A stretch of DNA of 64,000 nucleotides from the NCBI RefSeq assembly GCF_910592395.1, contig NC_088323.1:2542001-2606000 (forward strand). Direction: 5' to 3'. Below, one piece after another: positions 6,767-51,863 of the stretch. The notes under the pieces are model-generated. The model was not told the origin of the DNA and did not search any database. It worked only from the letters and a program-made list of their open reading frames with translations. A program made the translations under genes and the position numbers. This stretch comes from Lineus longissimus (taxonomy: Eukaryota > Nemertea > Pilidiophora > Heteronemertea > Lineidae). How positions within the stretch are numbered: the stretch's first letter is position 1; every line of letters starts with the position of its first letter.

Positions 6767-6924
6767 TTCAACTGAGCTATTCTTCCCCAGTCAATGGTCT
6801 TCGGCTGTGGGCCAACAAACCTGGGAACACTCTCCTTGAATCGAAAGCATTGTTCGATCTAGACAGCACCGCACTTTAGGATAGCAGCTTCATTAATAAC
6901 CGATTCGCAATCTGTGCCTGAGTT

Positions 6925-7285
6925 ATGGCTGCTATTCCAATTGTGACGCTGATCATTGCTTATCATACTTTGACGAGTGTGGTCTCGGGTTATCATACCC
7001 ATAAACGGAACTGTACGGGTACGGACTGTGTTAACAGGCTCCTTCATCGCCCCAAGTTGACACTGCAGCAGCAAAAGACACTTCGCATCGAAATGATCAA
7101 GGGACAGATTCTCAGTAAACTCAGGATGCACGCAAAGCCAAATGTTACGAAATCTATACCGAGGGTAGCCTTTCATAAAGCTTTGCAGAAACTTAAAATG
7201 AGAGATCCGAAATTGCGAGGGGGCCGAGGTGCAAATGAGGACTATTACGCTCAGATATCAGAAATTGTCAGCTTTTCGGAAGAAG
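6925..7285 (+). CDS. activin-like gene, coding exon 1 (signal peptide and N-terminal prodomain)
   Basis: Encodes residues 1-120 plus one base. The start codon opens a hydrophobic signal sequence (AAIPIVTLIIAYH) ending near VVSG. Next come the CTGTDC pair and an amphipathic helix region (LRIEMIKGQILSKLRM) typical of activin prodomains, which straitjacket the dimer. The exon ends at GAAGAAG with a consensus GTAAGT donor at 7286. The frame stays open past the donor to 7347, but the residues there have no family likeness. Confidence 0.9.
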
Positions 7286-10200
7286 GTAAGTCCCATTTAC
7301 ATCACTTTCCTAAAATTGATGCAGACCACGAACAATTGTGGTTTTGATTTCAGTCGATAGAAGACAGTCTCACAAAAAATGATACAAATATTTCCCCGAT
7401 GTTACTTTTCATCTTTTTTAAGTGACCCTTTCAATGAACTCTAGGAGAATTGGTCACTCTGGTCATGAAAAGTGCAAAAATACATTACATCATTATTAGT
7501 ATGTGTTTCTCAGATGTTCTAAGTTGTGCACCCTCATCAACAGGAATGTACCTACATTCGTTTATACATTTTCGATGTAATGAGATCCCTGTCAAAGCAC
7601 GTGCCAGCATGTGCGCTGATAGCTTAAAAGAGCTATTTCACTGACAGCGGCTCCCCAGATCAATCGGCCAATATAGGACAGCAGGGGGACCCACCGTACA
7701 AGAGCATACAAATGCTGGTCAATATGTGCATACCCCAAATGTTCATAATAAAAGATTGAGAAGTCCTTGCTCCCAATAGGCTATCGTACAAGAACACCTC
7801 TCACTCGAACTGTCCATCATCCAATTATTGCGAAGTGATCATCGACACTCCGTGGATAGCACATAATCGATCGACCCCGTTGAGTGCAGCGTAGATTAGT
7901 TCTCAACCGTATCACAATGTCGATCGTCGGAAGAATATCACAATGGCTGCCATTTTATCGGCCAAGTCGATTGACCTGCAAGATGCCACAAAGGGAGCCA
8001 CCAGAAGATGACAGTATGCGCAGCCCGCGCTCTGCTTTGGCAAAATGCGCCCATTACAGGCGCTTTCCACCCCTACCGGCGGTTTGGACACATCTTGCTC
8101 ATCTTTTTCGCATCAAAAACAAATCAACAGGTCAAGCGCGCTGCAATGGTAAAAACAGGTTGCCATTACCGGCACTCATCGTCCCTGCCGGGAGCTTCAG
8201 GAAGTACAAATCTGATCTTGTCGCAATTTGGAAACCATTGTAAGCGCGGTTCGTTGACCCCTCGATACTATTAAACTTTTTACGACTGCGGCACACTTAT
8301 TTCTAATTTACGACAACGTCCTTGGTTGTAGTATAAAACTTGCTCAACGAATCGTAACCAATGTTTTAACCTTTTTGGTAAATTGTAAAAAAACGTGCAC
8401 CGTGAGCTGGAATTCAGGAGCTTTGGTTTGCTTTATGGCCTGAGTTAAACTTGAATATCATTCAGTCGAGTTTCGATTGGAACGGGGCCAACAATTGCTG
8501 ACATATATTACATTTCATTCGAGGACTTTTGTCAACTGCATGTACTGATTGACATATTTCGTACATGTGTGTGTTTTGATTTTATCGCTTTTGTATTCAA
8601 TTCCTTGACGCTACCTGTTGTAGGCCGACTGAGCATAGGGCTGAATTGGGGATGAGACCTGGTTACCGAGGAGAGGCGGATATGAATACAGGAGAGGCTT
8701 TCAACCCAATTTGATCTGTTGACATTTTTGCACCCCGTAACAATCTGCGAGATGATTTATTCCCGACAGGCGCATGACGTCCAGGAGCCCAGACAGCCAA
8801 TGAGACGCCTATCGGCGATCGAGGTCAATTGGAAATTCAAATTCAAATTCTATTTCATATTTCACACTATCAACGACCTGCGTTTGAAATTTCAGTCGCC
8901 TTAGAAATGGGGAGCGATATCCAGTTTAAAAAGAATTGTGAATTGTATTATATTGTAACTGATCGTACTCATCCTGGTTGTGTCTTTCGTCGAGGTAGTT
9001 TTAATGCCTATCAAGTACTAAGTACACTATACAAATTGGCATATCAGAAGTAGGTTTAACACCATAATGGCCTACTATTCAGGGGTGTAAAGAGCACTTA
9101 CATGTGTTTTCTTTTTAGTTCAAGTACACGTATGAATGAAAACTACGACGTGAGCGTTTTATATACAGGATGTTTGGAAAAAAAACAACAACATTAAAGC
9201 AACTCTTTCCACAGGACAAAATGTTGCTTTAAATAGTCTACGTCACTTCCTCCATGCGTGCCAGAGACATGTAAGTTCAAAAATGATGCTGGCGTCCCAA
9301 GTCGGTGTTCGCTCAACATCTTAATTCAGCCAATTTCTCCACAGAGATGAATTAATTTGAAGTAAACTCGCCGCGCTCAATAGCTCCAAACAACCCCATC
9401 CCCCAGACCCCCACCCTACGCCCCTACCATTCGTACAATTGTACATAAATTGGTCCATTCATTTCGTAAATAAATTTGTCCTACTTGAGTTGCTGCTTCT
9501 TGATCTAAAACCCGATATGTTCCACCAATTACGAGGTCCATTTTGTAAATTTTCAAAATGGTAGTCAATTCGCAAATAAACCAACCACCCACTAACATCC
9601 TGTGCGTATATTTTCATGATTTCAATATAAAACCTGTCGGACTTTGTGTATTAGACCTGCTGACACACTGTCATTGAGAAATTATTAAGAATCAAAAGGT
9701 TAAGTGAAAATGTCAATAGCCTTATTCTGTTGACCTTCGTTTTAGGAAGCGCACAGCACTCAAAATCCGAAAATGATGATCATTTCTTGGAACTGCATCT
9801 AAAACCAATATATCGATCAATATCGTCGGTCAATGTCACTTTGGACTTTCTTTATTTGAAATGACACGAGTAAAATGATCTTATAACGATGAGCACGTAT
9901 CAGTTGAGGAAGTCCACGGTACTATATCGATCATAAAATTTACCGTAAAGCGTTGTTTTTTTTAACTTTGAGTACCATATTCTAGGCCATGTATTCCGTT
10001 ACTCCTCCTCCCACAAAAAGGTCATCAGATTGAATTCACCTTGCATTTACTTTGCAATTAAAAAAAGGTGGCACTTATAACTGTAGTACCAATTATACCA
10101 GATCCTTAAAGATATTTTTTATGCCTTTCTGAAGTTTCAAATCATTGGCCTTTCTGAATTTTCAAGTTCTAAGTCTTAACTCGAGAGTAAAGATAGATAC

Positions 10201-19200: not shown

Positions 19201-22200
19201 GCGATAAGTGGTATTTGTTCGATGCCATGTAAGAATTAGGCATATGTAATTGCGAAAGGCAACTTCAAATCCTTCTGAAGTCGACACTTAACAAAGATTG
19301 AACTGATAATTACGACGAGCTGGTATTATCGATTTGCGCTCTAGAATGCTGACCCAGTTATATTAGAGTAACAGCGATAAGTGTCTCATATTCAATAATC
19401 GATCAAAGTAGAAACCCGTGTAAAATTCCGATTCATACAATTTGATCGTGCCGGGGTGATTGAGATTCAGCTCAGATTCGATTTTTAAAGCTGATTAGGC
19501 ATGATTAAAACATCCAGCGGCTAAGTTAGAAAACGCCCGACCATCAACCGTCCAACTGCACTTGAATCAACGGATTGTTCTTGGCAATTCTCAAAATGGA
19601 TGTCCACGCGCTTTGCAACTAAAATGCATGCGAATCGTTTAAACCATTTTGGTACCTTCTGTGTGTTTGAACGAGTAAGGGTCCCTGCCCATGTTATTTC
19701 CACTAAAAATGCAGCCAAATGTCAGACTGAGTTTCAATCTTGGTATCGATTCGTACTATTGCCTTGACCGAACTGGCGTGACACACTTTCCTTCTAAAGC
19801 AACGGCGAACCAATCAATTTAATGCAAAATCTCACCGAAATCCCCGTTCGTTTGACCTTTTCAACATGATAGACGTGCGATCTCTAAATAGTCCAATTGG
19901 AAGTTAGTCAAAACGGAAAGATCAATTGCAATCACCATCTATCAGGCTCGGATTGATTGGTCGAGTTCATGGACCCTTTCTTCGACTACAGTGCATTCGT
20001 AAATTTTCTGGAGTGAGAATTGATTGGACGAGGTTAGACTTTTACTCAGAGCTACGCATGCCAAACAGGATTTCTTTTATGGTTCTGCATCAGAAGTAAA
20101 ACAAGTTTCTTAAGCGAAGTCCGATAGTTTCTTGCAGGTCCTCGCGAGAGGGATTTTTTCTGCATACATGTATTCCTCAGTTGTTATCATATTTGGTATC
20201 TTAGTTGATGGACACAAAAATTGATAGCCTGGTGGTCGCGCAATATTAACCGCAACATAGAGTACAATTATCTAACCTACTCTGTCAACGAAGTATCAGT
20301 TTCTCGATTGGAGTACGAAGATCTCTGCGAGTGGTTATGTTTTAATGTTAAAACATAATCGTTATATAACGAAGTGGGTCACTAACACGTTAACTTCTCC
20401 ATGTCAAATGTTTTCAAAATAATGAAATCATAAATTGTCCTTTTTTTTCTGAAAGAGGAAACAAGATTGATATGGATGCCCAAAACAGCATCTTAACTCC
20501 CTAAGGTAAATAAAACTCCAACGATATTGGATGCTCTTCCTATCGCAAGAGTTTGTAATATCAGTTGACGTCCCATCAGATATATCTCGGCAGCTCACCG
20601 CACAAGATTGATCAGCTGCTACAGCATTACGTTACAAACTTCTCACTCCGATTTCGTCAATATTATGCGATTTATATCTGTTTCTATATAACCCAATAAG
20701 CTTTGCAATCTTGGTGAATATTGCCAGGTGATTTGGTATACGACTGGATGAAGGTAGTTTAACTATATAAACATCACATGATTATCGCCACGTGATAATT
20801 GTCATAGGGTTACCGTATATCATCGATGTTTTAAATATTGTTGCATCTGCAATTATTTTCTTAGTCGTAGATGAGACAGTGCCGGGGCTGGAGGGTGTAG
20901 AGAGGACTAGGTTCACAGTCATATCTCATCGCCAAGTGTTCCAGCGGCGAGCTCCGTTTTGAAATAACCTCCTTCTTGCCGTTGTTTTTGAGCCAGAGAC
21001 TTTAGAACTAATTTGTTTTGAACTTTGAAACACTTCAAAGGTTTTTCTCTCGGATAACACAAATATCCACCTTTTAGATATTTTTAAAAAGCTTCATTTT
21101 GCATTATCGAAAACAAACAACATCAAGGGTGAACTAAATAGTTTTGTGCGTTCATGATAGCGGCGTTAGAAGTAGTTATGGAATCTATTGAATTGTTATC
21201 ATACTGTTCAGAACTTTGAACATGTGCCATTTAAAGACTAGTTATGGCGCAACATCGAAATTGACAAAAAAGACGCTTCGAGGCATTGCTTATCTGAACA
21301 AAGTCATTTTCCAAAAACAAATACATCTACATGCACCTGCAATGTTCACAAACATTGTTTCATCTCAAATACCAAAGACAACATGTATCCGATTCCAATT
21401 TATCGAAATCAATATTTTTACGTCAATTTGTTTGCAACATGACAATACAGCAGAATGTTTTAAAATTCATCACATTTACCAATAAAGGCGAATCTTGAAA
21501 AAAAACTCCCACTCATCCAAGTAAATGAACAGTTCGTGTAGTCATTGTAGTCAATTGACACACGTGCAGCCCCACAGTTAATGATTTTGCCTCCTCTAGG
21601 TTTTGTGACTTCAAACCATGGGAGTGCCAATATCTATGCTAGAGCAATCTTATCCGAGCAAGGAACACCACTTTTTAGTTTACAGAAATTTCATACTATC
21701 GTCAAATGTGTATTTTCAGCTCCACACAACGACCACAATGCCCTGCAGTTCACGTTCAGCAAAGACGAGATAACGCGCGGGGACCTTGACGTCACGAGTG
21801 CCCATCTTTGGATTCTGCTCCGCTACAAAAAGCCAAAGTTTACCAGAAGGAAACCAAGACGGGTTCTCCTAACAGTCAGCAAAATGACGCAAGATGGCCG
21901 CACTGGTGAGATCGTAGCCTCCTTCCCCGTGACTTCAAAACACTCAAGGTGGCAGAAACTCACCATTCCTGTCGAGGTGATACAAGAAATGTTTAAAGAA
22001 TTGAACACAAAAATACGCTTTCTTGTTAGTTGTGCCGGTTGTGATACGGAGGTGGAACCGGTTTTGGTGAAGAGAAAATCGCGCCGGCCGCGAAGTCGAT
22101 CGAGGGGCCGGCGATTCCGACCTCGGCGAAAAAACAAACTAAACAAGCGGCGGCCATTTTTAATCATTCGAACGCACGTAAAGAAGTCCGCTAGACATAA

Positions 22201-22552
22201 AATCGAGAAACGACACGCAAAATGTGATCCGGAATTCGACAGTTGTTGTAAACAAGAATTATATGTTGATTTTAAAGACTTAGGTTGGGACTGGATTATC
22301 ACCCCTAGCGGTTATAACGCACACTACTGTAATGGCGTGTGTGGTGTAGGTTCAACGCCTGATATGTATGCTACAAGACATTCCACCATAGTTAGTAGGA
22401 TTTTAAAAATCAAACCTGCGGAGGAAAGACTTCAGCCATGTTGCTCGCCGAAATCGATGAAACCGCTGTCTTTATTGTATTTTGACGATAAGTTTGATAT
22501 AGTCAAAGCAGATCTGGATGGTATGGTCGTAAATCAGTGCTCCTGCTCATGA
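6925..22552 (+). CDS. activin / inhibin-beta-like TGF-beta family ligand precursor (2 coding exons)
   Basis: Predicted 397-aa secreted precursor, exons 6925-7285 and 21720-22552. Exon 1 ends after the first base of a codon (GAAG|GTAAGT) and exon 2 starts at the second codon base after TATTTTCAG, so the frames join exactly. Signal peptide is about residues 1-22. The prodomain has a CTGTDC pair near the N-terminus, then ISEIVSF at the end of exon 1, matching the position of the SEIITF block that ends exon 1 in inhibin-beta genes. Exon 2 continues with a VTSAHLWILLR block and a RPFLII block before a basic segment (238-285) and the ligand domain (289-397). The ligand domain has nine cysteines, the set shared by activins, TGF-betas and myostatin/GDF11. 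Activins signal as disulfide-linked dimers through type II/type I receptor kinases and Smad2/3. RPFLII and the FKDLGW context favour activin over myostatin. An oddity is GWDWII where activins usually have GWNDWII. The 14.4-kb intron holds no gene I can see. Confidence 0.92.
11551..11564 (-). promoter_or_regulatory. possible nuclear-receptor site (tandem AGGTCA half-sites)
   Basis: The minus strand reads AAAGGTCAAGGTCA, two overlapping AGGTCA half-sites, the second preceded by TCA as in FTZ-F1/ERR-type extended half-sites (TCAAGGTCA). It lies in the first intron of the activin-like gene. The match is exact, but a single 14-bp site in a large intron may be chance. Confidence 0.25.
11653..11704 (+). 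repeat. perfect tandem duplication, 26-bp unit, two copies
   Basis: The unit TTGAATCGACTGTCCTCGAT followed by TCTGCT is present twice without a mismatch. Each unit contains an internal inverted repeat, GAATCGA facing TCGATTC, so each copy can form a small hairpin. Perfect identity suggests a recent duplication. Confidence 0.85.
15578..15681 (+). repeat. GAT/GAC-rich imperfect trinucleotide tract
   Basis: About 100 bp of interspersed GATGAT, GACGAT, GATGAC and GGTGAT triplets. It is an imperfect microsatellite in the activin intron. The open frame it creates would be Asp-rich low-complexity sequence with no flanking coding evidence. Confidence 0.7.
18257..18325 (+). repeat. dispersed repeat copy A
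   Basis: ACATCC, then AAGTTAGAAAAC, CGCCCGACCA and GCACTTGAA occur in the same order and spacing here and at 19508-19572. Copy A carries a few extra bases (ACAAA) between the second and third blocks. They are diverged direct copies of an unidentified repeat. Confidence 0.55.
19508..19572 (+). repeat. dispersed repeat copy B
   Basis: Second copy of the unit at 18257-18325, same orientation about 1.25 kb downstream, with shared blocks AAGTTAGAAAAC, CGCCCGACCA and GCACTTGAA. The ends of the underlying element could not be fixed from two copies. Confidence 0.55.
20335..20358. repeat. short perfect palindrome
   Basis: TTATGTTTTAA faces TTAAAACATAA across a 2-base loop. Function is unknown; AT-rich palindromes of this size arise readily by chance or cruciform-associated mutation. 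Confidence 0.6.
21720..22552 (+). CDS. activin-like gene, coding exon 2 (prodomain, basic linker, ligand domain)
   Basis: Begins after TGTATTTTCAG and completes residue 121. The frame is open upstream to an ATG at 21581, but the residues before 21720 show no prodomain likeness, and the splice acceptor restores the family sequence. Prodomain about 121-237 ends with VSCAGCD, the CxxC pair seen in activin proregions. Residues 238-265 are an Arg/Lys-rich stretch including RGRR and RPRR, candidate furin sites. Basic KIEKR (281-285) sits just before the first ligand cysteine at 289. The ligand core runs CDPEFDSCC, HYCNGVC, PCC, NQCSCS and ends at TGA. Candidate AATAAA signals are at 22942 and 23225. 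Confidence 0.92.
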
Positions 22553-27407: not shown

Positions 27408-30400
27408 ATGGTAGAAGCAGGGAAGGTTGCTGTAATCGTCCTGGGGCTGGCCGCTGCCCTCGGTTACTACCTTACCAGGAACACCAAACTCAAGATTCCT
27501 GTGAGGGCCGAGCCCGATAAGGAATACGATTACATTATTGGTAAGTACATACACACAGCTTAAGGAAAGTTTTCAAAGGGGTCATCACAAAAGTACAGAC
27601 AACACCAAATATTGGAATAGTGATTTTGAAGACATGTAACATCAATTTCTATCGAAATTCAAGTGATAATGAGTAGAAACGACAAGAGGCAAGGGAGAGA
27701 CGATAGGAGAAGAACTGGCTTTAGCTCAACGCCATCGTAAGTGTCGCACTTTTTGGTACAACCGGGCCCACGGTAATGCGTCATCCAGGATCAGAACTGC
27801 TGGCCTTTTCAGCTGATATCTGATGACCAGTTTCAAACGTGAGTGTCATTTCAGTTGGTGGAGGTTCGGCGGGGTGTGTCCTGGCTAACCGTCTGAGCGA
27901 GGACAAGGCGAGTACGGTCTTGTTGCTTGAAGCCGGTGACGAAGGCACAGCAAAGGAGCTGGAGGTGCCGTCAAAAGGAGCGGGTGAGGTCCACGGTCCA
28001 AGGGATTGGAAATACAAGACTGTCAGACAGGAGAATGCATGTGGAAATTGGCCAAATAATGTAGGTGTTTTTCCTTTATTCTTCTTGCTCTATACATGCT
28101 TCCCGAAAATGGTGGCTTGCATTGGAACTAACTTTTCCCCCTTGTCCGTCATTAAAGGCATTCAAGTGTGTTGGTCAACCATGACTATCTCCTTTGTCCC
28201 TCCACCATAAGGCCTAGTTTCCCCTTATGACATCTCTATTTCGGACACTTAGCGCCCCATTTCTGGAAAGGTGTATAAGAACACCGCTATAACCTGATAT
28301 GGTGCATTCATACACGGCAGCCCATCGATGCTTCTCCAAAGTGTTCACATTTGAAAGCATTTTTGACCTCGCGCTAAATCCAGTCTCCAATTTACATTAC
28401 AGGAGTGCCTCCTGCCAAGTGGCAAAACCCTCGGTGGTTCCAGCGCCATCAACACCCTGCTTTACGTCAGAGGCAATAAGGCTGATTACGATGAATGGGA
28501 TAAAATGGGTGCGACTGGTTGGAATTATGATAACGTTCTACCATATTTTATAAAAGCAGAGAATACAGAAGATAAGAAACTAAAGAAATCGCGTAAGTCG
28601 ATACTAGCTTCAAAGCAGCAGTCGTCTGCCTACTCATTACAAGCTGGCTATGTGTGACAAAGATTGACCATTGTACACGAACAGGAGACACGATTACTAC
28701 TATAATGAATGTCCGAATGTATTCTACAATTACACGTTGTGCAGTGCATGTAGATACATATGGACAAGGGGAAGCAGTGGACGTACTGTGTATGAAAATA
28801 TCGCTTCCAGTCACTAGTAGTACGTGTATATGCTATTTGAACTTAACATACTCGCTTCATTTTCGTTGCCCTAAAGAGTCGTTCATAATGAATTTACATG
28901 TACATGTTCATGTACATGTACAAGATTACCATATTAAGTGATGGTGATGATGATGAATATCAGTGACCAATCAATGCAATATTATGTACATGGGCAGGTA
29001 CATGGACGATGAAAGAAACTCAACCTACTTCCTTAGTAAAAATGATGTCCCTTTTTTAATATCTCCGTTCCAGCGTACCACGGAACCGAAGGTCTTCTAA
29101 AAACGTCTCTTGTGAAAAACACACCTCTCGGAGATTATCTTGTAGAAGCAGCAGCAGAACTCAATTTGACTAGTGGTGACTACAATGGTGAAGAACAAAT
29201 CGGTAAGGAATTAAGGTCACACAAGTCTTGGATGACTTTGAAACTAAGGACTAAGAAGCAGAGTGATTCAAATGAAATAAGCGTTTAGGCCGTAATCTAG
29301 TTGTTGGTATATCAATGGGATGTACAGTGGATGGTCGCAAAGTTGTCTATGGTCTGCCTGGACGCCGAAGTTTGCCTTGCTGATTGCACCTCAGTGCATG
29401 CCTCGTTCGTAATATAAAATTGTCACTGCCAATCTTCTTTCCTACTCTCCAGGAGTGCATTATTCGCAGACGACCATTGGTGACGGCATGCGGGCGAGCA
29501 CGTCTCGGATGTACCTCTTCCCAGTCATGCACAGGAAGAACTTACACGTGGTGGTGCATGCCGAGGCTAACAAAGTAAGAGTTTAGACCTCCCTGGCAAA
29601 TCAACCTCACTGGTAACCTAATTGGTCTCACTCCACCGAGGTTCGCTCGAAAATTTCCGGTTGCAGCGCTGATTGAAAAGCTCCTGCATCTTTGCATACC
29701 ACCACCTCTCTTTTTAGGTTCTTTTTAAAGGCCACCTGGCCGTTGGTGTAGAATACGCTACTCCTTTAGATACCCATGTTACCGTGCTGGCAAGGAAGGA
29801 AGTGATCATTTCAGCAGGGGCGATTGGTAGCGCCCGACTACTGCTGTTGTCTGGAGTGGGACCAAAGGACCACCTACAGGAACTTGGTGTAAGTACATAT
29901 CAAAATAGGTGCATCAGCTTGCTTAATGATGATATATTATAGGTATTTATCACAAACAAGAGGGAATTTACCTTGCGTTAGATATCTCATTCATACAGTA
30001 AGGATTTCGTCAGCGCTATGGCTGAGGGAGATCGCCTACCAGGTCAGCTGACCTCTGGTTGTAATTCGGATCTGAAGGCATGGGCAGTTCACCGAAATTG
30101 AGTCCGAAATGCTAATTTTCCGATCGGACCACTGTACCCAAGTACGGCTGTCGTATTCCACTCTCACTGCATGTTGGATTCCCTTACTAGATTTCTGTAG
30201 TTGCTGACCTACCAGTTGGGCAAAACCTGCACGATCACCCGACCACTTGGGGCCCTGAGATCTACATTGACAAACCAATCTCCAACCTGGAAGAAACAAG
30301 ATTTGAATTTCTCGAAGAATTAAAGTACGATTGGTTTCGAACAGGTAGGCCCTGCGATAACCTGAGCACGGAATACAGTGCAACCAGAATACCATTTGAA

Positions 30401-34199: not shown

Positions 34200-37100
34200 G
34201 TAAGTAAACTCTCATCTGGTTGAATTTTTAAATCATCAATATAAACAAAATATCATATGAATGTTTTCCAAACCTATCTGAGTTCGCTATGCGAGTACTA
34301 TCGTTCATTTTCAAGAACGTATACGTAGCCGATAGGCGACTCTGATGCAGACAATCTGCCCTTAAACATAAGGCAGCATACAGCTGCAAAATAGTGAAAC
34401 CGAACGAAACGACTCTTTTTGTTTCAGGAGAACGAGGAGTTTTGCGAGAGGTGTACTGGGAATGGAGGGACATGTCTCTGCAGTGGTAATGCCCAAGAGT
34501 GTCAGTGTCCAGCATATTTTGCTGGTTCCGAGTGCGATTTTCCACTCTTTGACGAGGGTAAGAATGACCAATGCAGCAGCCAATGTAAACACTCTACTCA
34601 ACCTACAACATTTCTTATTCATTTTCATTAAAAAGCAAGATTTCGATATATTTTTTCTCTGAAGGGCGTTATCGGCATTTGTTTGAACATGGCTTTCTTC
34701 TAACATGTCTGGTTTCACTGCGTTTGGCGTGCTTCTGAGCGGGCCCTCCTCCTGTAGGTCTCCTCCAATCTTGCATATGAATTTGAAAACTTTCTGAATC
34801 CCTCTTCTTTCAGCCCGTGCTCACACTGGCCTTGGATTCAAGAGTCTGCAAACTGTTCTTGGCAAGACAATTAGTTGTTCAAGCTTTTATCGGCAGATGG
34901 ATGCTGCCGACCACACGTCGTTTGTCTGCGATGAGCTGATGGTTGATGCAGTACCCCTTGGGGTGGCGACGGATAACTGTGATTCGAACTGGGGAGACGA
35001 AGGTGTGTACAAAGGAAGTTTTTCCAAACTTCTTCGGAAATGTTGCATTGGACTAAAAAGGAGTTTATCAATGTGCTGAATGACGTAAAATTTAAATGAA
35101 ATAGCTGGATGATTGAGTTTCGGCCAACATTATTTGTCTTGTTCGAATTTGAAAAACATTTTCATAAATTCTTTCAGGCGGATCTGCTCCAACTCAAGCC
35201 TCAACAATCCAAGAACAAGCACTAGCAAAGAAGGTTCCCGAAGCACCTGCAGATGCAAAAGGTGCTTATGATGTGCACCTCCATAAAGTTTATTACTTAC
35301 CATTTGTCTCGTTTTAGGTCATGGAATTTCACCAACCAGCGTGGCGAACCATTCTTATTCCGGGGAACTATCAAGTTCGAGTGGAAATCAGCTATATTCG
35401 TCCAGCTCAGCTTCTTACTCGAGTAGTTATGACGTGTCGTCAGGTTACAATGATGAAGTTTCATCTTCAAGTTCCTCAGTCGACTCCCCAAGTGGCCGCC
35501 GGCGCTTGCTCCACTCCGGTTCAAACTTAGACTCAAACGCCGGCCCTGGTAACGAAGTGGAAACTCTAAATCTCAACACCGAGCGAGACCAATCAGAACA
35601 GGCCGGGACATCCGACCAAGATGAAACAATAATCGACACCCATCTACGGAGACGACTGCTCCAGTTATCTGCTGACCCTCTTGAGTTCTCCCACATCTGC
35701 AGTCACGTCCTCGGCGACACCGCACTCCTCCCAGGTGCAGTCATCCAGGAGGTGAGCTACGCCTTGGCGACGGGTGTCCCAAGGTCTCGATACAGTATGA
35801 GCTTAACCGGATGGCGTGAACCAACCACCGAGACCTGCTACCTTCGACGGTTGCGTTGTAAGGTTGCCACGGGTGACGTTAGACCAACTCTTGGTAAGTA
35901 CCCTCTTACTATCTGAGGTGAACCCACGCCATGACCATCGGACAACTTGGTGACGCCAACCCACTGTCAATTCAAAGTGAACATGGCACCAATGTATAAT
36001 ATGTCTTGGCCTACGGTCTATTGTCGGCAGAACTGTAGCAACTATCTCCATTTCAGGTTATTTTCCTTTCATCGCTAAGAACATGACTCCAATCGCCCAG
36101 ACAGGAGAATCCGTTCACCAAATAAACTACGGACTTACACTACAGGACCCCATGGATATGGGTGAGGAAGGCGGTGCCAAGGTCTATTTTCTAGAGTCGG
36201 ACGAACCAGGTTCGGGGATGTGTAAGTACTGCTTACGTCTAAAATTCCGATAACAATATGACAGGACTATTGCTTCGTTTTTCATCCACGCTTCTGCTTA
36301 CCAAACATTTCTCCATAACGTCTGCCACGCGCAATAAAGTTTTCTACCGAATTTCTAAAACTGTTGATTCTGGGCCTTGGCAAGAACTAGCATGTTCAGA
36401 AGATCCTGTGAAAAGAATAGGATTTGTGCGCGCGAATAGCATGTAACTTGTAAATATAATTATCAAGCCTTCGTGTTTTCATCTACAGATATTGCTGTCT
36501 ACGATTCAAGAGCGACACTTCTGAGTGGGGGAAATGCACTCTATGACATTGAAACAGGATTGGGTAAGTTAAAACACAGTTATTGTACACACATTCTGGT
36601 GATCACCTCAGCGGGTTTGTTCAGATTCAGCAATGGCTAACATCACCATCCTCCAATACGGCAGGTCTGCAGTCATCCTTTCTCAGTAAATTCCAGGTAG
36701 AAAATGCTGATACAATTCTTATATGATTCTCAGTCAATATCGCTTTCAGTTTCGTCTTTATGCATGACGTATGCTTATACTTTAATACAAGATACTTGTG
36801 ACATATTTGAAGGTTTAACTAAGAATCTACAAGACAGAAACTGACCTTGTATGAAGGAAAAGAGAGTATATTGTTTATCGTTTTCAGTTGATACCCCAGG
36901 TGGACGATTGATAGAACTCATAGGAACTGGTCACATCGTCTTCAATCGAAGCCTTTATTTCCAAAATGGCGCTTCCTGCGAGATATCTTACTTCGATCTT
37001 GAAATGTTGGTAACAGGGCCGATGCGGACCCTATCTCATTGTGAATTCATCTCGTATTCTACTGGAAATGTTGACACACAGTCCTATGTCGATATGGCAG

Positions 37101-40098
37101 TCGATGCGACAGGGCTTTATGCAGTTTATCGGCACAAATACGGTGGTGGTTTAGTTGCTGACCGGTTAGGTAAGTTGACAAATTCAAATTTTGCTGGACC
37201 TTAAAATTCCTACTCTCTTCCTATCAACAACGGTCAGTCTTAAAAGCCGTATCCACTAGAGTATATAGAATGACGTTAACTTACACGACAGTAACCTGTA
37301 AAACACTATCTTGTTCAAAATGGAACACCAAATCATCTGGATTTGAACCGACTAAGTTCCTTTCTATAGCAGGTGTTGTCAAAGTGATGTAATATTTTCA
37401 TTTTGAATCTTTCAATCTTTCAATAGTCATTGTACATTCATTTCCACCTACAGCATTGCCTATTTTTTTCCATTTAAACTTCAGATCCAGTGACCTTGGA
37501 AACAATCGAATCGACACAAATCCTAGGACTGACGAAGTCCACTGTCATAGATACTTTTGTGATTGGTGGATATCTTCACGTGGTACATGATGACGGCTCC
37601 TCGCCAAACCTTGTAACTCGCCACCAGGTGTCGCAGTACGCGGAATTCCAACTTCCGGGGCAGTTTGAGCGCCTTACAATGACGTCACAAAACGGACAGC
37701 TTCGATTCTTGACTTTCCAGCCGTTCATCCACTCTGTTTACGGATGGGAGTCCGACCTTGCGCTGCAGTACGATGTAGACACATGGACACAGTCAGGTAC
37801 ACCGGGTCCTACTTGTATCAGGGAAATCATACGATGAGGAACTTTGGCATGTAGTTTGACCCGCAAAGTGTCCTTATGAAGTCGACAAGGTCAAAAGTCA
37901 AGGGGCTATGGTCCAAATTACGGTCATGGGCTTACTGCTACGATTTCACAAAGACGTCTTCAATGAGATTCGCGAATATTTTCATTTTAATAGTTTATGA
38001 AAAAAGCTCTCATCATTTCGTCACTGTCCCTTTTTCCAGGTAGCCTATATGAAATTGCTCCAGCAAGTATCATCTGCCAACTGCATTCATCCGAGCGCAT
38101 TTGGATGGTGGAAGACCCCATTGCAATTACAGGCCGAGGACGTGTTTACGTCCTTGCGACTGGGAGTATCGGTAGGTATCCTACCTTGCCTACTTTGCAG
38201 GTCGAAGCGAGATGGCTGCTTGGATCAGGAGACCTCCACCTTCTCTTTGGTCTCATCTCAAAGCGCATCGGTAGTGTTTTAGGGCGTGTTTTGGCCAGGT
38301 TTCCCCAGCCTTACAATAGGCTACGAACGACGAAGGACGAAGTATGTTAATATTTTCGTTGAAATTTTTCTGATTCCTGCTAGGATAGGAATTATTTTTA
38401 TGAGTGCCGCGTAATCGAATTATCACAGGACTTAATGAGACCACAGTTCTTCACCAGTCGTATATATGGATTGGGAAACTGCCTATTGTCTCCGATCACA
38501 ATGCGAACACCTCATTAAGCTTGAACATTTTCCGATATCAGATGGGACTGAACCATATTGGCAAATTCGTGTAACTTTATTTGGCCTTAGCTACCTGGCT
38601 TCTCTCATATGCTTGTTTCAAGTAAGAATATGTTAAGTGGTTCTAACGGAGAAAATGCAGTTCTTTTCCTTTTTTTATCTTTCAGCAATTGGAAACAGGG
38701 TGTTTGTCCACAACAGGGATGAATACTTCTCGGAACAAAGTCCGAGCATTATTGAACAGTGAGTGTTCTTCCTGATGCCCTACTTGATAAAAAATCCAGA
38801 TGTGATTCGTTCAGATCGTATCAAGTTTCGTTTGCATGCGCATATACATCAATTACACAATTCATATAGATTCTTAGTTACTAACACTTTCTATGTATTT
38901 TATGCTTTTTGTCCAGTTTCACTATGCCAATTCAATGTCACGGCGTAACCTTCACCGTATTTTGGGGAAATATCTACTGTTCCTACTACCAGACTGCCTA
39001 CCGATACAACAGAAGGGCGGGGACAACTAAAAAAAGAACCTTGACGACTGCTGTAGTATCCAGCAATCCTGATACACCGTCTGTTTTCGTGGCACTGGAC
39101 GAAAAAGGTGAGACCAACCTTGTACATGAAATGGAAGGTATTACGGCAAAGCACTAGTGAACCGATGCCCGGTGAAGCCATCTAAAATGCCCCTGAAAAT
39201 GTGCAAGTCCTTATTGTATGGTTATTATATGGCTGTATACATTATATGCGTATATAAAGACTATGAACGTCAATAGTGCAGTAAATAATAATGAAATGTC
39301 CATTTAAAAACTTGTCCCTCGGACATTTTAAACTATTACACTCACCCGAAACCGATGCAAAAACCTGAAACAAGCATGATAGTTAAACATCCGATTGTTA
39401 TTTTTACCATAGGTCACCGTTGATGCAATCGCTCTAATTTAATTCAGGGCTCTACCTTATCATAAAGACAACGCAGGGAACGCTGAATGTCTACACCGTG
39501 AACGCTGGTAATCTTCAAATAGAAAGTTGGGTCAAAGCCACTGATTACAGTGCGCGAACACCAAGTCATGTGTTCGTTGCCTCCAGTCACGTGTACGTAG
39601 TGGAGAATCAGGAAGTCGTGTACTGGCAAAAGATCACGAACAGCGAGTAAGTAGACACTGCTAATGATACAACTCTCAGTTCACACATCTTGACCATACC
39701 TGGCATTCAACGTGTTAAACAGCTTCGATGGCCATATTGAATATTCAGCATTTTGAAGACTTTTATGCTATCTGTGTGTGAGACAAGAGGAAAACGGGGG
39801 CTTCAAGTGGCTTCTTTGTCTTGCCGTGTTTGATCCAAGATTATTGCCGTAGGCTGCAACGTTGTCTCATTGAAGAACAGCAGGCGGCTGTGGGAGCTAA
39901 ATGCACTTATTATGCAATGTAATGTGATAGTATCTTCCTTATTGTTCTATTTTCAGCGACTACAGCTCCGATGTTTATCCGATAGAGGGCCTAACTGGCA
40001 ATCTGATGCAAATCAAATATGATTCCAGCAGGAGAACTTTATTTGGAATGGACGCGGTCAACCATGTTAACATCCCAATAGTGTTCACTTGGTACTGA
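33674..40098 (+). CDS. secreted PAN/apple, EGF-like and olfactomedin-like mosaic protein (15 exons)
   Basis: Predicted 959 aa. Exons: 33674-33820, 34017-34199, 34428-34557, 34814-35002, 35178-35261, 35318-35893, 36057-36221, 36489-36563, 36888-37169, 37485-37796, 38040-38171, 38686-38758, 38917-39107, 39448-39646, 39957-40098. All are GT-AG and in frame. Signal peptide is about 1-25 (YRIISVTFVLSASMM core). A PAN/apple-like module follows (28-105), then an EGF-like module (115-148), a two-cysteine-pair region (154-216), a Ser-rich linker (about 245-330) with two RRRLL sites, and two olfactomedin-like regions (about 437-714 and 715-959). Most introns are phase 1, as in shuffled extracellular domains. 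The product is probably an extracellular matrix or cell-surface-associated glycoprotein; olfactomedin domains are beta-propellers that bind proteins at the cell surface. I do not recognise a named orthologue. Confidence 0.9.
34428..34557 (+). CDS. olfactomedin-like gene exon 3: EGF-like module
   Basis: One 130-bp exon encodes CERCTGNGGTCLC followed by ECQCPAYFAGSEC, an EGF-like pattern with seven cysteines rather than six. The extra cysteine may pair with another module or with a partner chain. The exon starts in phase 0 and ends in phase 1. Confidence 0.8.
35318..35893 (+). CDS. olfactomedin-like gene exon 6: Ser-rich linker with two tribasic sites
   Basis: Largest exon of the gene. The first half encodes a Ser/Tyr-rich low-complexity segment (SSSSASYSSS, SSSSSSVDS), likely flexible and possibly O-glycosylated. 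GRRRLL and LRRRLL then lie about 57 residues apart on either side of an acidic stretch. The last part (ICSHVLGDTALLPGAVIQEV and onward) has three cysteines and an ordered-looking composition. Both flanking introns are phase 1, so the exon could be skipped without a frameshift. Confidence 0.85.
36057..37796 (+). CDS. olfactomedin-like gene exons 7-10: first olfactomedin-like region
   Basis: Exon 9 encodes GTGHIVFNRSLYFQNG and VDMAVDATGLYAVYRH, corresponding to the conserved GTG-VVYNGSLY and DLAVDE-GLWVIY blocks of olfactomedin domains. Exon 10 begins with DPVTLETIEST, the usual DP-TLEV continuation, then IGGYLHVVHDDG at the position of the conserved internal repeat. The conserved blocks are weaker than in vertebrate olfactomedins, so this is a divergent member. 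The domain is split over four exons, all phase 1. Confidence 0.75.
38040..40098 (+). CDS. olfactomedin-like gene exons 11-15: second, degenerate olfactomedin-like region
   Basis: Residues about 715-959. VTFTVFWGNIYCSYYQ, VFVALDEKGLYLIIKT and HVFVASSHVYVVENQE follow the order of olfactomedin blocks (start strand, VDE-GL-VI strand, internal repeat strand), ending MQIKYDSSRRTLFGMD like the L-YNP--R-LYAWD block. It is more degraded than the first region. The protein ends NIPIVFTWY followed by TGA at 40096-40098. Confidence 0.6.
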
Positions 40099-44173: not shown

Positions 44174-47100
44174 CGAAAGGTGTGCAGTAAAAGAACACCA
44201 AATTTACAAAGTATATGCACAGCATCGTTAATCTTATATCGACATTCGTTGATAGGACTCGACAATGGCGTTTTTAAAATTGCTGCAATGGCGTAATCGA
44301 AATGAGCTGCTTTACGGGGACCTTGTTATAATCGATGCACATTGTTGACATATAGTTTGTGCTGTTGCAACTAGGTATAGATAAATCACAGGCGTGTATC
44401 AATGTTTGCTATCAGCAAAAAAAAATGCAGAAACTCATAACCGCAATTCCAATTTCAATCAAGAAATGTTTGAAAAAAACGTACGTCTTGAAAAAAGTTC
44501 CTTTTTCGTAGAAATCCATATAATTGTATAGACTGGTAAAGCCACCAAGAATGTTGTTACTCTTCCAGTATATTTGAAAAATGTTCAAAATATTGTTTCA
44601 TGAAAACCCCTGTTGCGGTTTTTTCAAAAACTATCTTGCATTAAATTGGAGCGGGTATCACAATGGTTGGGTGCTATTATGCAAACTTCTCGGGTTTGGA
44701 GTAAAAACAATTACAGCACATTCACTATAGAAAGACAACAATTACAGTTTACTGTTAATTATGACTGAGGCATGTTGCAAAGCAGTGTCATTCCACGAAT
44801 AGATATATATACGCGTAAAATTGTTTGTGCAAAGTTGGTAGATACATTGTAGCTCAATCTGCTGTAAACAATAACGTAATGTTAATATTGGCCTGCATTA
44901 TTTGTAACTTTAACAAGCTTGAGTGGTCTGATGCGATCGGGTAGGTATGAATGACATCGATACACAAAACGTAACATTTCATTGTTAGTCACCAGATAGT
45001 TTGAGATAATTCACGCATGCGCAGTTAAAAGTTCTCGTCTGTTGGCTTTGAATCACCCCGAAGTCTCGTACGAATCCCACGGCTTTTCAAAGAAATTAAT
45101 AAATAATGATTTTGTCCGTTCCTCTAGCCCGTTTCCTCCGCATCTGATTGACAATATTGTTCGTCCGCATCCTAGCGACATCTAGTGGCCACCTGGAAAA
45201 TCAATATGGTAAAGTGGAAAATTCAGTCAATTTCGAAAAGGTGATAGAAAATTAATCGAATACCTCTTAGCCGCAAGGTTCAGGTTATAGTAGATAGCAC
45301 TTTAGCCTATGTCTACTGATCATGATGTGCTATGTATAATGTACAGGGATGTTTCATGTGCATTGACGTGCATTAACCATCATGGCTACGAACTAAGATG
45401 ATTTCTAACAACATAACCAGTATTCAAGCACGAACTTCACGAACTGGCATTTGATTTTATCCAACTTTGTTAAACAATGATATTTGAGCGTGTGATTCGG
45501 CCTTCAGGGGCTTTATCAAAATCCCTTTATATGGCACATCCCTATATTTATGTACACAAGACCATCAGCCCACTTCATCCGATATGGCTTATTAATTACC
45601 CCACGTTAATTACAATATTTGATAATGAGTGCAAATGAGCCGTACATGATTACAATAACCTGCGAATGCACCTGGATTGCATGACACGTCAATAACTGAG
45701 CCGGAAGGTTAATATGCGAATTCATCCAATCCTAGCTAGATTATCATCAATATGCATGTGCTGTACACTCAACACGAGAACATTCGTATATGTAATAACC
45801 CTGTTATTAGCTACTAATCGCCCGATTTCAAGCGCTGAATGACGACATTTCTATTCTTCATATGAAGCAACTCTGAAATTTTCAGCGAAAGAGTTCGAAA
45901 TACAAAAAAAATCAGTCTATATGTGATGACCGACGGAGATTATATGCAACGTCCATATGCATTGGGACGTAACTGCTGTGTACATTTACATAGCTAAATG
46001 GTGGCGATGACTTGTCGGTGCCCCGTGGACGACTGAAGAATACTTCCCATCGCGCTATGATCAATAATTAACTGCTAATTGTTCAATAATGTATTAATTA
46101 GTTGCTGGGTGTCGATTGATAGGGACGATGGGATGTCGGTGCTGAAGAAAGGTCGTCGATCCAGTTCCAGTGAGTGTTATATTATTATTGATAACATCAT
46201 CAGCTTCACTCTAGTGATACTACTGCACAGTTATGGTCTCATCTACGGATGAAATTGATTAGGCACGAGCATTAGGCAGGGGCCAGGTATGTTAGAATAG
46301 GTAATACAAAGGAAATCTCACAGGACATCAACACTATTCACGCTTGGACAAGGAACATATCTTTTGCTAACTCGAGCAGGTCCCATGAGTTTGCAAATTA
46401 CCATCAAATTGACCCCTATCTGGCCACTGCCTAGGAATCATAAAACATATGAGTTACTTGGAAAGAAGAGAGGACGAAATCTTGTGGAGTGGTTATTCGA
46501 TGGGACAACTACTAACGAAAATAATTTTCAAGGGAGGAATACATGTAGCTTGAAATGGCAACATAGATCCATATCGGGATGAAACCAGCTACTCTCGCAT
46601 AAGCATCCTTAATACACACCCCAGTGATTGAGACCACCCGTTTCATTACTCACTCTGACTCTATCACTTTCCCCACCCGAGACATATCAGCAAGTGCCCA
46701 TATCCTGATTTCCTGGTTTTTGTACGCGCGAGAAATAATGGGTATACTTTCTCAAATTGGTCTTGATGAAAATAGCATTCAATCCATCCCGTTTAATAAA
46801 TATGGCCAGCGTATTACCAAATATACTATAAACCCATCAGGGGTTATTACTCGCAACTACAGACATGTCAGGGAGTGATCGTTGGTGAATATTCTCGTTG
46901 TCTGCTGCTCTAAGGACAGGGTGACTAATTGCTTAGAGGGCTAGCCTAGAGTACGTTGGCCTCCATAGGTAGCCAATGGCTGCTTAAATAGCTGTTCCTC
47001 GTTTATTTCTTTTTCTTTTTTTTGGGGGGGGGGGGAGGGGTTCGCATAGATATGGGTAAGTGGCGAAAACACCGCGAATAAACTGCTAACTCGCATGCAG

Positions 47101-47666
47101 GCACCTCAGTCAATTGGGCTCGCATGATAGCAAGCATTGATTAATCTATACTTGATAATAGGCTCATCCGTAAAGGGTTTCGGAAAGCAATTTTGGAAAA
47201 AAGTTCTTTTCACTTTACACGTTTCTCACCTTTCCTTAATTGCTCTATTTGCGTCAAGGGAATGGGTTGTCTACTGATGCAAAAGAGCAAGGTCAAGATG
47301 ATTCTTGAATGGAAATTATATACATACCTCTACTTTTGGGTGTCCTTCGCAAAAGCCGACAAAAGATTCTCGCGCATGGACGGCGTTAACTCTGATTTGT
47401 CCTTCAATAACATCTACAAATAAAGTGATTTTATAAGAGGTGTAAAGTGCAATGTGCACGACATGCATCAGGCATGTAGAGGTTACATGGCTTGAGAAGC
47501 TTCATGATATGACATTTCTATCGACTTAGTTAACTTGTATGATTATAGTATCTTTATATCAAAGGGATTGCTTTTGAAAGCATGATGCAATCCCTTAAAC
47601 AAACGTTTAACAAAAGGTAATCTCAGTGTTTATCAAAATTTGATTGTGTCATTGTCGTCTACATGA
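44174..47666. other. intergenic region downstream of the peptide prohormone gene
   Basis: No coding domain on either strand. A 12-G run lies at 47024-47035. On the minus strand an AATAAA at 47002-47007 (TTTATT on the plus strand) could serve the prohormone gene with a 3' untranslated region of about 660 bp. Confidence 0.5.
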
Positions 47667-48317
47667 TTACATGATGCCTACCTCTCGAATTACTTTTATT
47701 GTCTCTGGATCCATGGGGTTGTCATTGCCTCGCTTATGTGTCTGCTTGGCTTCGATCCACGAACCCAGCGCCCGCTTGAAGTCTAACCAAGAGGCCCTCT
47801 TGTCGTCAGGAGAAGCGCCATTCCGTTTGAAATCTAACCACGATGCCCTTTTGTCGTTGTCGCGCTTAAAATCGAGCCAAGATGCCTTTTTGTCAGTATT
47901 CCTCTTAAAGTCCAACCAAGAGGCCTTCTTGTCTACAGCCCGCTTGAAATCCAACCAAGAAGCACGTTTGTCATTGCTAGCATCTGTGTTTCCGTGTGTG
48001 CGTTTGAAGTCCAACCAACTCGCCCGCTTCTTGAAATCCAACCAACTTGCTCTTTTGTTTTCTAACCAGGGCTTCAAGTCGCCGGTGTTTCCCCGTTTAA
48101 AGTCCAACCAACTTGCTCGCTTCTTTGCAGCGTCGTCACGTTTGAAGTCCAACCAGCTTGCCCGCTTTGCCTCGTCTTGATTTGCGTTGTCACTTTCATC
48201 ATATTCCCGACCACCATTTCGTTTGAAATCGAGCCAACTTGCTCTTTTCTGGCCACTATTGATTTCTGTCAATTTGCTTTCGTCGGCCACACTGTCTGAT
48301 AATCTGTCGCCATTGAC
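47667..48317 (-). CDS. prohormone exon with ten ASWLDF copies
   Basis: Residues 30-245. Begins VNGDRLSDSVADESKLTE, an acidic leader, then the ten repeats. Copies 1-3 are separated by long spacers, copies 4 and 5 are joined by a single KKR, and copies 6-10 are each preceded by DK(R/K). Peptide residues are invariant at the protein level while codons differ. The frame ends VIREVGIM then TAA. A weak donor-like GAG|GTAGGC lies 12 bases before the stop, so a further exon cannot be excluded. Confidence 0.9.
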   Translation of the reverse strand, partial: VNGDRLSDSVADESKLTEINSGQKRASWLDFKRNGGREYDESDNANQDEAKRASWLDFKRDDAAKKRASWLDFKRGNTGDLKPWLENKRASWLDFKKRASWLDFKRTHGNTDASNDKRASWLDFKRAVDKKASWLDFKRNTDKKASWLDFKRDNDKRASWLDFKRNGASPDDKRASWLDFKRALGSWIEAKQTHKRGNDNPMDPETIKVIREVGIM

Positions 48318-50701
48318 CTAGAATACGAAATACAACAGAAGTTACTCTTAACCAAAAAAACACGAAAAAAAGGTCTTCTGAAATATTGAGTCCGTGGCAT
48401 GTTATGCTTGAATCAAATACTGCTTCTGCAAAAGCCGGTCGGCGATATCTTCTCAGTTATGTCTATTGGATTCAACGCCAATATCACTAGAGTTTCCCCA
48501 CAACAAAAAGGATGCCGCGGAACAAGGAAGCATGCCATGTAATGTACTGCAGATACGCCGCCACGCGACAGTGGCTAGCATGCCGAAATATTTATTATTC
48601 AAACAAGAACTATATGCAGGGTCGGTTATTCTTATGAGCTTCCATCTCTCCCTCACTCATAACAGCCTCCCCACACCTATCGTGCAATTGTACTGTGTTG
48701 TTCCCCCATCGGCTTCTAGCCTATGACCCTAATTAAGCGTACTCTCAGCGAGGGGATTTGATTCGTTTTCCGTGTCCCAAGAGAGGACATCATCGCGCAG
48801 AAGAATGCCCAAGGGGGTGCACTCTGTCTCGTCGATCCCTTGGCGGGAGATCGACCGTCTCTCTGCCCAATATAGCAACATGTCTCATGACATAGATAGC
48901 TACTCTGCGCAAGCGGGACGAGGTCTTTTCCAGCCGTTTAATGAAGGTTTACAATTTTGTGCGAATAAAGGATATGAGGAACAATCAAATGAAACTATGA
49001 TAAGATAGTGTTTGTCTAAACACCCTGCTTACTTTAAAATGTGGTTCGATAGATTTCATTATGCTGTCTAAGAAATGTATCGAAGACACAGCATTACTGG
49101 GGCAATATCACACATGATTGTTGACTGACAAAAATGTTAATAGTCAGTCGTTATTGGTAGCCAATTTTCCCAGTTTCCAGGAACTACGATCTGTGATGTA
49201 ATAAGCTTACTTGTCCTGATAAGTTTACCACAATTTTTTTTCTTGACGAGACTGGCCATCAAACATGTACTATATCATGTTTATACTTGACCAGCACTTT
49301 AGACACAACATATCCCAATCCTGTTGTAATGGGTTAGCTAATTACTTAAAAGGTGTAGTATTGGGACAATGTGACTGCAGTTACTCCAACGGCCAGAGCC
49401 ATCGATCATTTCAGTAATATATTGACTCACTGACCGATGTCTCTCCATTGTAAATACCGTTATTGCCGCCGAGACGATAGGTAATGACAAAGTCGGTGAT
49501 ATTGTTGAACAATCATTTAATACCCTGGTCCAACGATCTTCTGCAACTAGCTTGGGTTCGTGTAGCGAAAGCAACTTTTGTATTTACAAGGATGACCAGT
49601 CCGCCTGCACTACCACCTTACATCTATCTTGTGGTAGGCTGATGCCATTTTGTGAAAAATAGGCACACTAGAAAACCACTCAGAAGTTTCTGGCTTGTTT
49701 TCGATGCTACTGTGACTAAAGTAATAAAAAGCATACGTCCAGGAGTAAAAGTTTGCACTTTATTGGGTAGATTCTGTTTTTATAGTTTGTTTGATAGATT
49801 ACTGCATTAGGGTGAGTGATAATTCGCCATATTGTATTCATATTCGTGTCGGCGGTCCAGGTGGACATTGCCTTCTGCTCAAAAAAATGTCTGCCTTGGA
49901 GAAAAGGATCTTAAAAATATTTGACATCAAATAACATGGCCCACGCTTCAAATCGTTTCGACCTCCTGGTACTATCAGGGAGAAATGCCCGACTTGATAC
50001 ATACGCTATTCAAATGCCTGGAATTTCGGCAGATGAGATTGCCCTAGCGTGATACATGATTGTTTTCTCATTTCACCTTGCTTATCATGTAAACAACGCA
50101 AGCGATTAGGGTGGGAACTGGAAATATGGCGGCGACTTTTGCCAGGGGCCAGCTATTGTTTCCTAAACTAGCCCATGGCTTCGTGATGTAATTATTGACC
50201 TGAGAGTCATTTTTCTCGTCAGGCAATCGGCGTGTCTGGGGATGCTGGTTTGGGATAAGAATGTCTATTGAATAACGCGCTGATGGGAAAGAAAATTTTT
50301 TCCCACCCTTCGTTGAAAATGGAAAAATCGCCTACAAAAAACTTCAAGCACAAGCATTCTATTAGTTCAGTCTTGATGACTGGTGTATTCACTGTGAGTG
50401 GTCCGTGTGAGACCGTTTTCCATATAGATTAGGCCTCAAATGATTGTTGTTGAGTAACTGGAAAGAATTACTCTGAATTATGGGAGATATGTTGTGGTTG
50501 TTGCGCACCAAGAATCGACTCCTACTTCAAGCTGATTCCCTTTCTGCGTAGTACGTGGAGGCTGCACAGATTATATGATTATTAATATGGTATATACAGT
50601 GTTACTTACTTCGAACGCTTTGTTCTCCGACGCCACACTTGCATATAAACAGAACAGGCCGGCGAACAGAAGTAATACGTTTTGGGATTTCCGCATTGTA
50701 T
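47667..50701 (-). CDS. multi-copy peptide prohormone releasing ASWLDF (2 coding exons)
   Basis: Predicted 245 aa. Exon with start codon: 50696 down to 50610 (29 residues); second exon: 48317 down to 47667. The first encodes a clear signal peptide (NVLLLFAGLFCLYASVAS) and ends GAA|GTAAGT; it is preceded by a pyrimidine-rich acceptor (CTTCCAG at 50702), so an untranslated exon lies upstream. The second begins after TATTCTAG in phase 0, matching the first. It holds ten copies of ASWLDF, each bounded by KR, KK or KKR dibasic sites, separated by variable, mostly acidic spacers. Prohormone convertase cleavage followed by carboxypeptidase trimming would give free ASWLDF. No Gly precedes the basic sites, so the peptide would not be C-terminally amidated. 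This is the architecture of invertebrate neuropeptide precursors. I do not recognise the family. The C-terminal tail has a degenerate relative (ALGSWIEAK). Confidence 0.88.
48318..50609 (-). other. intron of the peptide prohormone gene
   Basis: 2.3 kb, bounded on the minus strand by GTAAGT at 50609 and TTCTAG ending at 48318, phase 0. No other coding evidence inside. Confidence 0.8.
50610..50701 (-). CDS. prohormone signal-peptide exon
   Basis: 92-bp exon from the acceptor TTCTCCTTCCAG|ATACA to the donor GAA|GTAAGT. The ATG is the sixth base of the exon. The 29 encoded residues are MRKSQN, a hydrophobic run, then SVASENKAFE, with likely signal cleavage after SVA or VAS. The frame agrees with the repeat exon. 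Confidence 0.88.
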
Positions 50702-51640
50702 CTGGAAGGAGAAAGAAGAAGAGAGAGTTCATAGAGAGGAAACAAAAATGTTGCTTATTTGATATCAGGCTGCCCCTGGACTGACAATTATGTGTAGTAG
50801 GGTGTTGACATGTTAGGTATGATCATGATGATCGAATCATCCAATTGACGAGACTGGATCGGAATTCCGCATAGTGTCGTTTCAAATCATGTAAGTAATA
50901 AGGCGGTTATTACTTGGAATACATCTGTTAAGAATCTTAGCAATGCCAGTGTCGCATCAGAATTGTGTTTTGACACGTGGAAGTTGCTCAATTTCACGTG
51001 GTTGTGGACGTGGCGAAATAAGAGTACATCTAATAATTCATCCCATTATCATTGTTTCACCAAAATAATGTGATAAGGTATGATTTTTTCAAATGATAAT
51101 CATTCATTCATATCCTCGTCTGGACATTGTGTGAAGGGGACCTGTTTAAAGTCAAGCATGGACATGTATCAATATAATGCAGATTATACGAATTACAAAA
51201 TAAAAAAATAAAATAAAAATAAAATGTTATGCAAAATGATTTGTTTTCTTTTGTAACCCGTTTACTAAGCTCCCCGATTGGAAGAAGCTATTAGAACCTT
51301 CTAAAAGCTTTTTACCTGGATTTCAGTTTTATGCCAGTATTGACACAGTTCCTCTCTTATTGAATTTAATCTGTGTTGTTTCTGTTTAGTTCGCCAAATA
51401 CGGCCTTAGCATCAAATATTTATTTCAAAACACTAAAAACACATTTGCTTCTTTATTCACCTGGTTCGATGAAATCGATTATTTAAATGACTCTTCGTAA
51501 CCAACTTCAAGTTTGAACGATTGCCAACGTGTGTTAGCGAACTGGATTCGATACCGATTATCAGACATGTTTAGCAAAACCTTACGAACGACGAACTACG
51601 AAGTACCAATGTCTGAGTGTCATAAAGTCTTGCGCGCATT

Positions 51641-51863
51641 TGTGACTCGCTCTACCAAAACTAGGCGCTTGTCGCATCTGAACTCAACAGGTTGATACGG
51701 ACTTGTTGTTCATTTCCCTATTGTAGACCTTTTGTGAAATCTATTACAAACTGATTTGGTCACATTTCACAAAAGGTCTACAATAGGGAAATGAACAACA
51801 AGTCCGTATCAACCTGTCAAGTTCAGATGCGACAAGCGCCTAGTTTTGGTAGAGCGGGTCACA
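51641..51863. repeat. inverted repeat with 100-bp arms and 23-bp loop
   Basis: 51641-51740 and 51764-51863 are reverse complements without an indel and with only a few mismatches (for example CTCAACAGG against CTTGACAGG). The pairing stops abruptly at TGTGAC/GTCACA on the outside. It would form a long hairpin in RNA or single-stranded DNA. No terminal duplication could be defined. Confidence 0.85.

Follow-up and report, generated by a model that had tools for sequence, protein, structure and literature searches.

The window, the whole stretch of 64,000 nucleotides of Lineus longissimus contig NC_088323.1 that was analysed, carries on its minus strand a gene for a predicted secreted precursor with ten identical copies of the hexapeptide ASWLDF. 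A chromosome-scale assembly of this species has been published (PMC8593623). Three coding exons were located (Table 1; all positions are those of the window), with the ATG of the precursor at 50696, and were joined as a three-exon model on the basis of the splice-site sequences and of the agreement with a database protein. The translation of the joined exons comprises 268 amino acids and is the same at every residue as the protein LOC135500346 of L. longissimus (hereafter named P0001), which is stored in the database as 'uncharacterized protein LOC135500346 [Lineus longissimus]'. The call of intron 1 rests on this identity together with the splice-site sequences.

Table 1. Features of the ASWLDF precursor gene. 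A slash marks the boundary between intron and exon.
Feature	Position	Strand	Description
Pyrimidine-rich stretch	50702..50719	-	Ends in CAG just before ATACAATG; sequence TCTTCTTTCTCCTTCCAG/ATACAATG
Coding exon 1	50610..50696	-	87 nt; start codon, putative signal peptide MRKSQNVLLLFAGLFCLYASVAS, first propeptide residues
Intron 1	48318..50609	-	GT...AG, phase 0; donor GAA/GTAAGT, acceptor TATTCTAG/
Coding exon 2	47682..48317	-	636 nt; acidic spacer, ten ASWLDF copies, ALGSWIEAKQTH peptide and first part of the C-terminal propeptide
Intron 2	47414..47681	-	GT...AG, phase 0; donor CGAGAG/GTAGGC, acceptor TTTGTAG/
Coding exon 3 and stop codon	47330..47413	-	Encodes MLLKDKSELTPSMRENLLSAFAKDTQK; exactly residues 242-268 of P0001

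The phase-0 join of a signal-peptide exon to a repeat exon, proposed in an earlier note on this DNA, was borne out by the donor and acceptor sequences of intron 1. The same note had ended the precursor after 245 amino acids (...VIREVGIM, stop at 47667), an ending that corresponds to read-through into intron 2; exon 2 is left at 47682, and exon 3 supersedes the last four residues (VGIM) of the earlier reading. The range then given for the gene (47667-50701) holds exons 1 and 2, and the last coding exon lies outside it. The limits of exon 2 are mirrored in a second protein, P0002, a 223-amino acid sequence encoded by a JGI metagenome contig of 2374 bases, which begins at the residue corresponding to V30 (the first one encoded by exon 2) and loses its similarity to P0001 right after E241 (the last one).

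Upstream of the start codon, the pyrimidine-rich stretch could possibly be the 3' splice site of a non-coding exon, which would place an intron in the 5' untranslated region. Polyadenylation-like signals were found at 47007 (AATAAA) and at 46797 (ATTAAA). An inverted repeat at 51641-51863, which lies some 0.9 kb upstream of the ATG and has two 100-nt arms that are 97% complementary and 23 nt apart, resembles a short inverted-repeat mobile element. A 178-amino acid open frame on the plus strand (47644-48177) lies opposite the repeat array and is probably its shadow rather than a gene.

Hydropathy of the precursor reached its peak (2.97) at residues 7-17 and did not exceed 0.6 beyond residue 30. 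This hydrophobic stretch points to a signal peptide, probably cleaved near S23. Within exon 2, the first ASWLDF begins at 48242 and the last one at 47795, and the ten copies occupy protein positions 55, 82, 97, 119, 128, 148, 161, 174, 187 and 204. Every copy is flanked on both sides by KR or KK (10/10), and in none of them (0/10) is the final F followed by Gly, so that both the ten identical copies between dibasic sites and the lack of an amidating Gly, as read in the earlier note, stand. When residues 30-268 were shuffled 2000 times, no hexamer appeared more than twice. Besides this array, no other dibasic-flanked A...DF was present within the window.

At the DNA level the ten ASWLDF copies are all distinct, with 2 to 7 differences per 18 bases and no amino acid change among them. 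The same number of changes was spread at random in 20000 simulations for each of two codon-level consensus sequences, and with both consensuses 0/20000 left the peptide unchanged (means of 21.8 and 21.9 amino acid changes, minima of 13 and 12); the null used here takes no account of the common descent of the copies and gives a rough guide. The Ser codon is AGY in copies 1-5 and TCN in the last five (48242-47778, minus strand), a split which suggests that the array is probably made up of two sub-families and which points to two blocks of copy expansion.

The comparison with P0002 provided a second view of this constraint. P0002 holds nine copies, eight of ASWLDF and one of ASWLDT; the final F of the core is, then, not absolute (1/9 copies). 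Identity was counted in the columns between P0001 residues 30 and 241, gap columns being excluded (6 in the core, 4 in the dibasic sites, 12 in the spacers, 1 in the N-terminal part and 1 in the post-repeat part), as were the residues after 241, because P0002 appears to read past the exon end. Counted in this way, the core is identical at 53/54 aligned residues and the dibasic sites at 34/35, against 20/48 in the spacers; the N-terminal part (residues 30-52) is identical at 16/23. The difference between core and spacers indicates that selection acts on the peptide as well as on the sites at which it is cleaved. Together with the varied DNA of the invariant copies, it supports what had been proposed in the first reading, namely a precursor of neuropeptide-type layout with selection on the peptide. 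The part past the last copy (residues 212-241), which contains ALGSWIEAKQ(T/S)HKR, is also well preserved between both proteins (25/30 identical).

Tandem repeats are also found in secreted structural and glandular proteins, and the locus might in principle encode a repetitive protein of this kind with no role as a signalling precursor. However, dibasic sites flank each of the ten copies, and the core is conserved between variable spacers. If the locus is that of the AxxxDF precursor considered below, its peptides have moreover been detected by mass spectrometry, cut at the dibasic sites (PMC8557429). A structural or glandular protein is thus a very improbable reading, and a proneuropeptide remains the preferred one.

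Thiel et al. 2021 (PMC8557429) reported AxxxDF as a precursor type of both nemerteans and brachiopods. It is among the 18 L. longissimus precursors that yielded, in larvae, 46 peptides predicted between dibasic sites and confirmed by mass spectrometry, and it is described in that paper as lineage-specific, its precursor having been found by BLAST or motif search. The locus agrees with this description in species, in the A-x-x-x-D-F motif and in the position of the peptides between dibasic sites, and no difference was found in this comparison by species, motif and architecture. The motif fits all ten copies in P0001 and 8/9 copies in P0002, the other one being ASWLDT. On these grounds the locus is very probably the L. 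longissimus AxxxDF proneuropeptide gene of Thiel et al. 2021. The earlier note had left the family unrecognised, a view that is not supported, and had stated that its reading would be refuted by a match to a well-described family; AxxxDF, from the same species and with mass spectrometric support, is a family that fits and so provides such a match, although it is named only twice in the main text of PMC8557429, without gene structure. Its suggestion that the peptide may be lineage-specific agrees with the published description.

It is also conceivable that the locus is a separate, undescribed multicopy precursor of L. longissimus which matches the motif by coincidence, the published AxxxDF being another gene. 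The main text of PMC8557429 gives the motif alone, which leaves room for this reading. Against it, the precursor passes the dibasic pattern applied in the screen of that study, which was directed at signal-peptide proteins with at least 5 dibasic sites 5-25 residues apart. The published dibasic regular expression matches P0001 (residues 28-225) and P0002, and also 718/2000 shuffles, and its match was therefore taken as a weak consistency check. The published amidation pattern gave no match in P0001, as expected without Gly. The chance that a random hexamer fits A...DF is about 1.6e-4 (generic residue frequencies), and a coincidental match was judged very unlikely.

Sulfakinin was grouped with cholecystokinin and gastrin in the comparison with the peptides of that family. 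The WLDF ending of the L. longissimus peptide is identical to that of medaka gastrin-8, DY(SO3H)RGWLDF-NH2, and W-x-D-F is common to ASWLDF and medaka CCK-8, which ends in WMDF (PMC11211334). Both medaka peptides have an amidated C-terminus and a sulfated Tyr, whereas ASWLDF has neither feature: the amidation Gly is absent in 10/10 copies, and the hexapeptide contains no Tyr for sulfation. The ten copies also speak against membership in this family, and sulfakinin is listed in PMC8557429 as a separate nemertean precursor. Membership was rejected on amidation and on Tyr, and it is extremely unlikely that the locus encodes a cholecystokinin, gastrin or sulfakinin. There is a decidedly slim chance that the WLDF core of AxxxDF mimics or descends from the cholecystokinin/gastrin core and would act, unamidated, on a receptor of that group. 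These estimates are not all exclusive of the identification as AxxxDF, since a relative of cholecystokinin could also be the AxxxDF gene.

A further candidate was tried and rejected. The WLD precursor of Platynereis (Conzelmann et al. 2013, PMC3890597) is an annelid proneuropeptide that has the letters WLD in common with ASWLDF; it is listed there among the precursors whose Cys residues may pair in disulfide bridges, whereas ASWLDF contains no Cys and the sole Cys of P0001, C16, lies within the putative signal peptide. The letters 'WLD' do not occur in the paper on the Lineus excitatory peptides (PMC6617912).

Relatives of the precursor were sought in protein searches that required shared five-residue words and whose E values refer to 5.8 billion sequences. 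No brachiopod AxxxDF protein appeared at E values up to 10, and the connection of the nemertean AxxxDF with that of brachiopods was therefore not reproduced. Besides P0001 and P0002, no relative was obtained at E values up to 10 with the two-exon precursor as query (3572 candidates), with the C-terminal region 205-268 of P0001 (2 candidates) or among the best 7992 candidates, those with most shared words, of a two-sequence profile. No Pfam family matched the two-exon precursor and no solved structure matched P0001, in both cases at E values up to 10. Neither ASWLDF nor LOC135500346 was found to be mentioned in the open-licence literature of PubMed Central, where AxxxDF occurs in PMC8557429 and in one unrelated paper on leukaemia.

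The precursor gene agrees with a family that has already been published for this species, and the gene itself is not a discovery. What is gained is that LOC135500346, an unnamed database protein, is now linked to a reported peptide family, and that the exon model proposed earlier, right in outline, is corrected.

Established knowledge of neuropeptide processing suggests the most likely fate of the product. The signal peptide would bring the 268-amino acid precursor into the secretory pathway, where prohormone convertases would cleave it at the dibasic sites; the K and R residues would then be removed by a carboxypeptidase. Up to ten ASWLDF peptides per precursor could be released in this way, unamidated and with a free C-terminal acid (monoisotopic mass 737.338), and ASWLDF would be secreted to signal through a receptor. 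No report of a receptor or of a function for AxxxDF was met in the literature covered. According to PMC8557429, the receptors of many neuropeptides that are confined to lophotrochozoan groups are unknown, AxxxDF not being named in that statement. A question of interest is which receptor would recognise a hexapeptide that is unamidated and repeated many times, and whose family is reported from nemerteans and brachiopods.

Other coding features of the window were observed in a domain scan that covered 20 stop-to-stop frames out of the 289 with at least 60 amino acids, all of those described here lying on the plus strand. A 333-amino acid open frame at 21551-22549 contains a complete TGF-beta domain at its residues 231-332 (PF00019, 103.6 bits) and is predicted to be an exon of a TGF-beta-type ligand. 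At 6922-7344 there is a match to the TGF-beta propeptide that is weak, with 16.2 bits against a cut-off of 25.8; the frame may be an exon of a ligand gene, or the match may be due to chance. At 27827-28207, weak matches to Rossmann-type FAD/NAD-binding families were obtained, NAD_binding_8 with 19.2 bits and Lycopene_cycl with 19.1 bits, neither of which reached its cut-off. The frames at 36845-37201 and 37478-37834 match consecutive segments of an olfactomedin-like domain (PF02191), with 41.1 bits and 18.6 bits (the latter below the cut-off), respectively, and are probably two exons of one gene.
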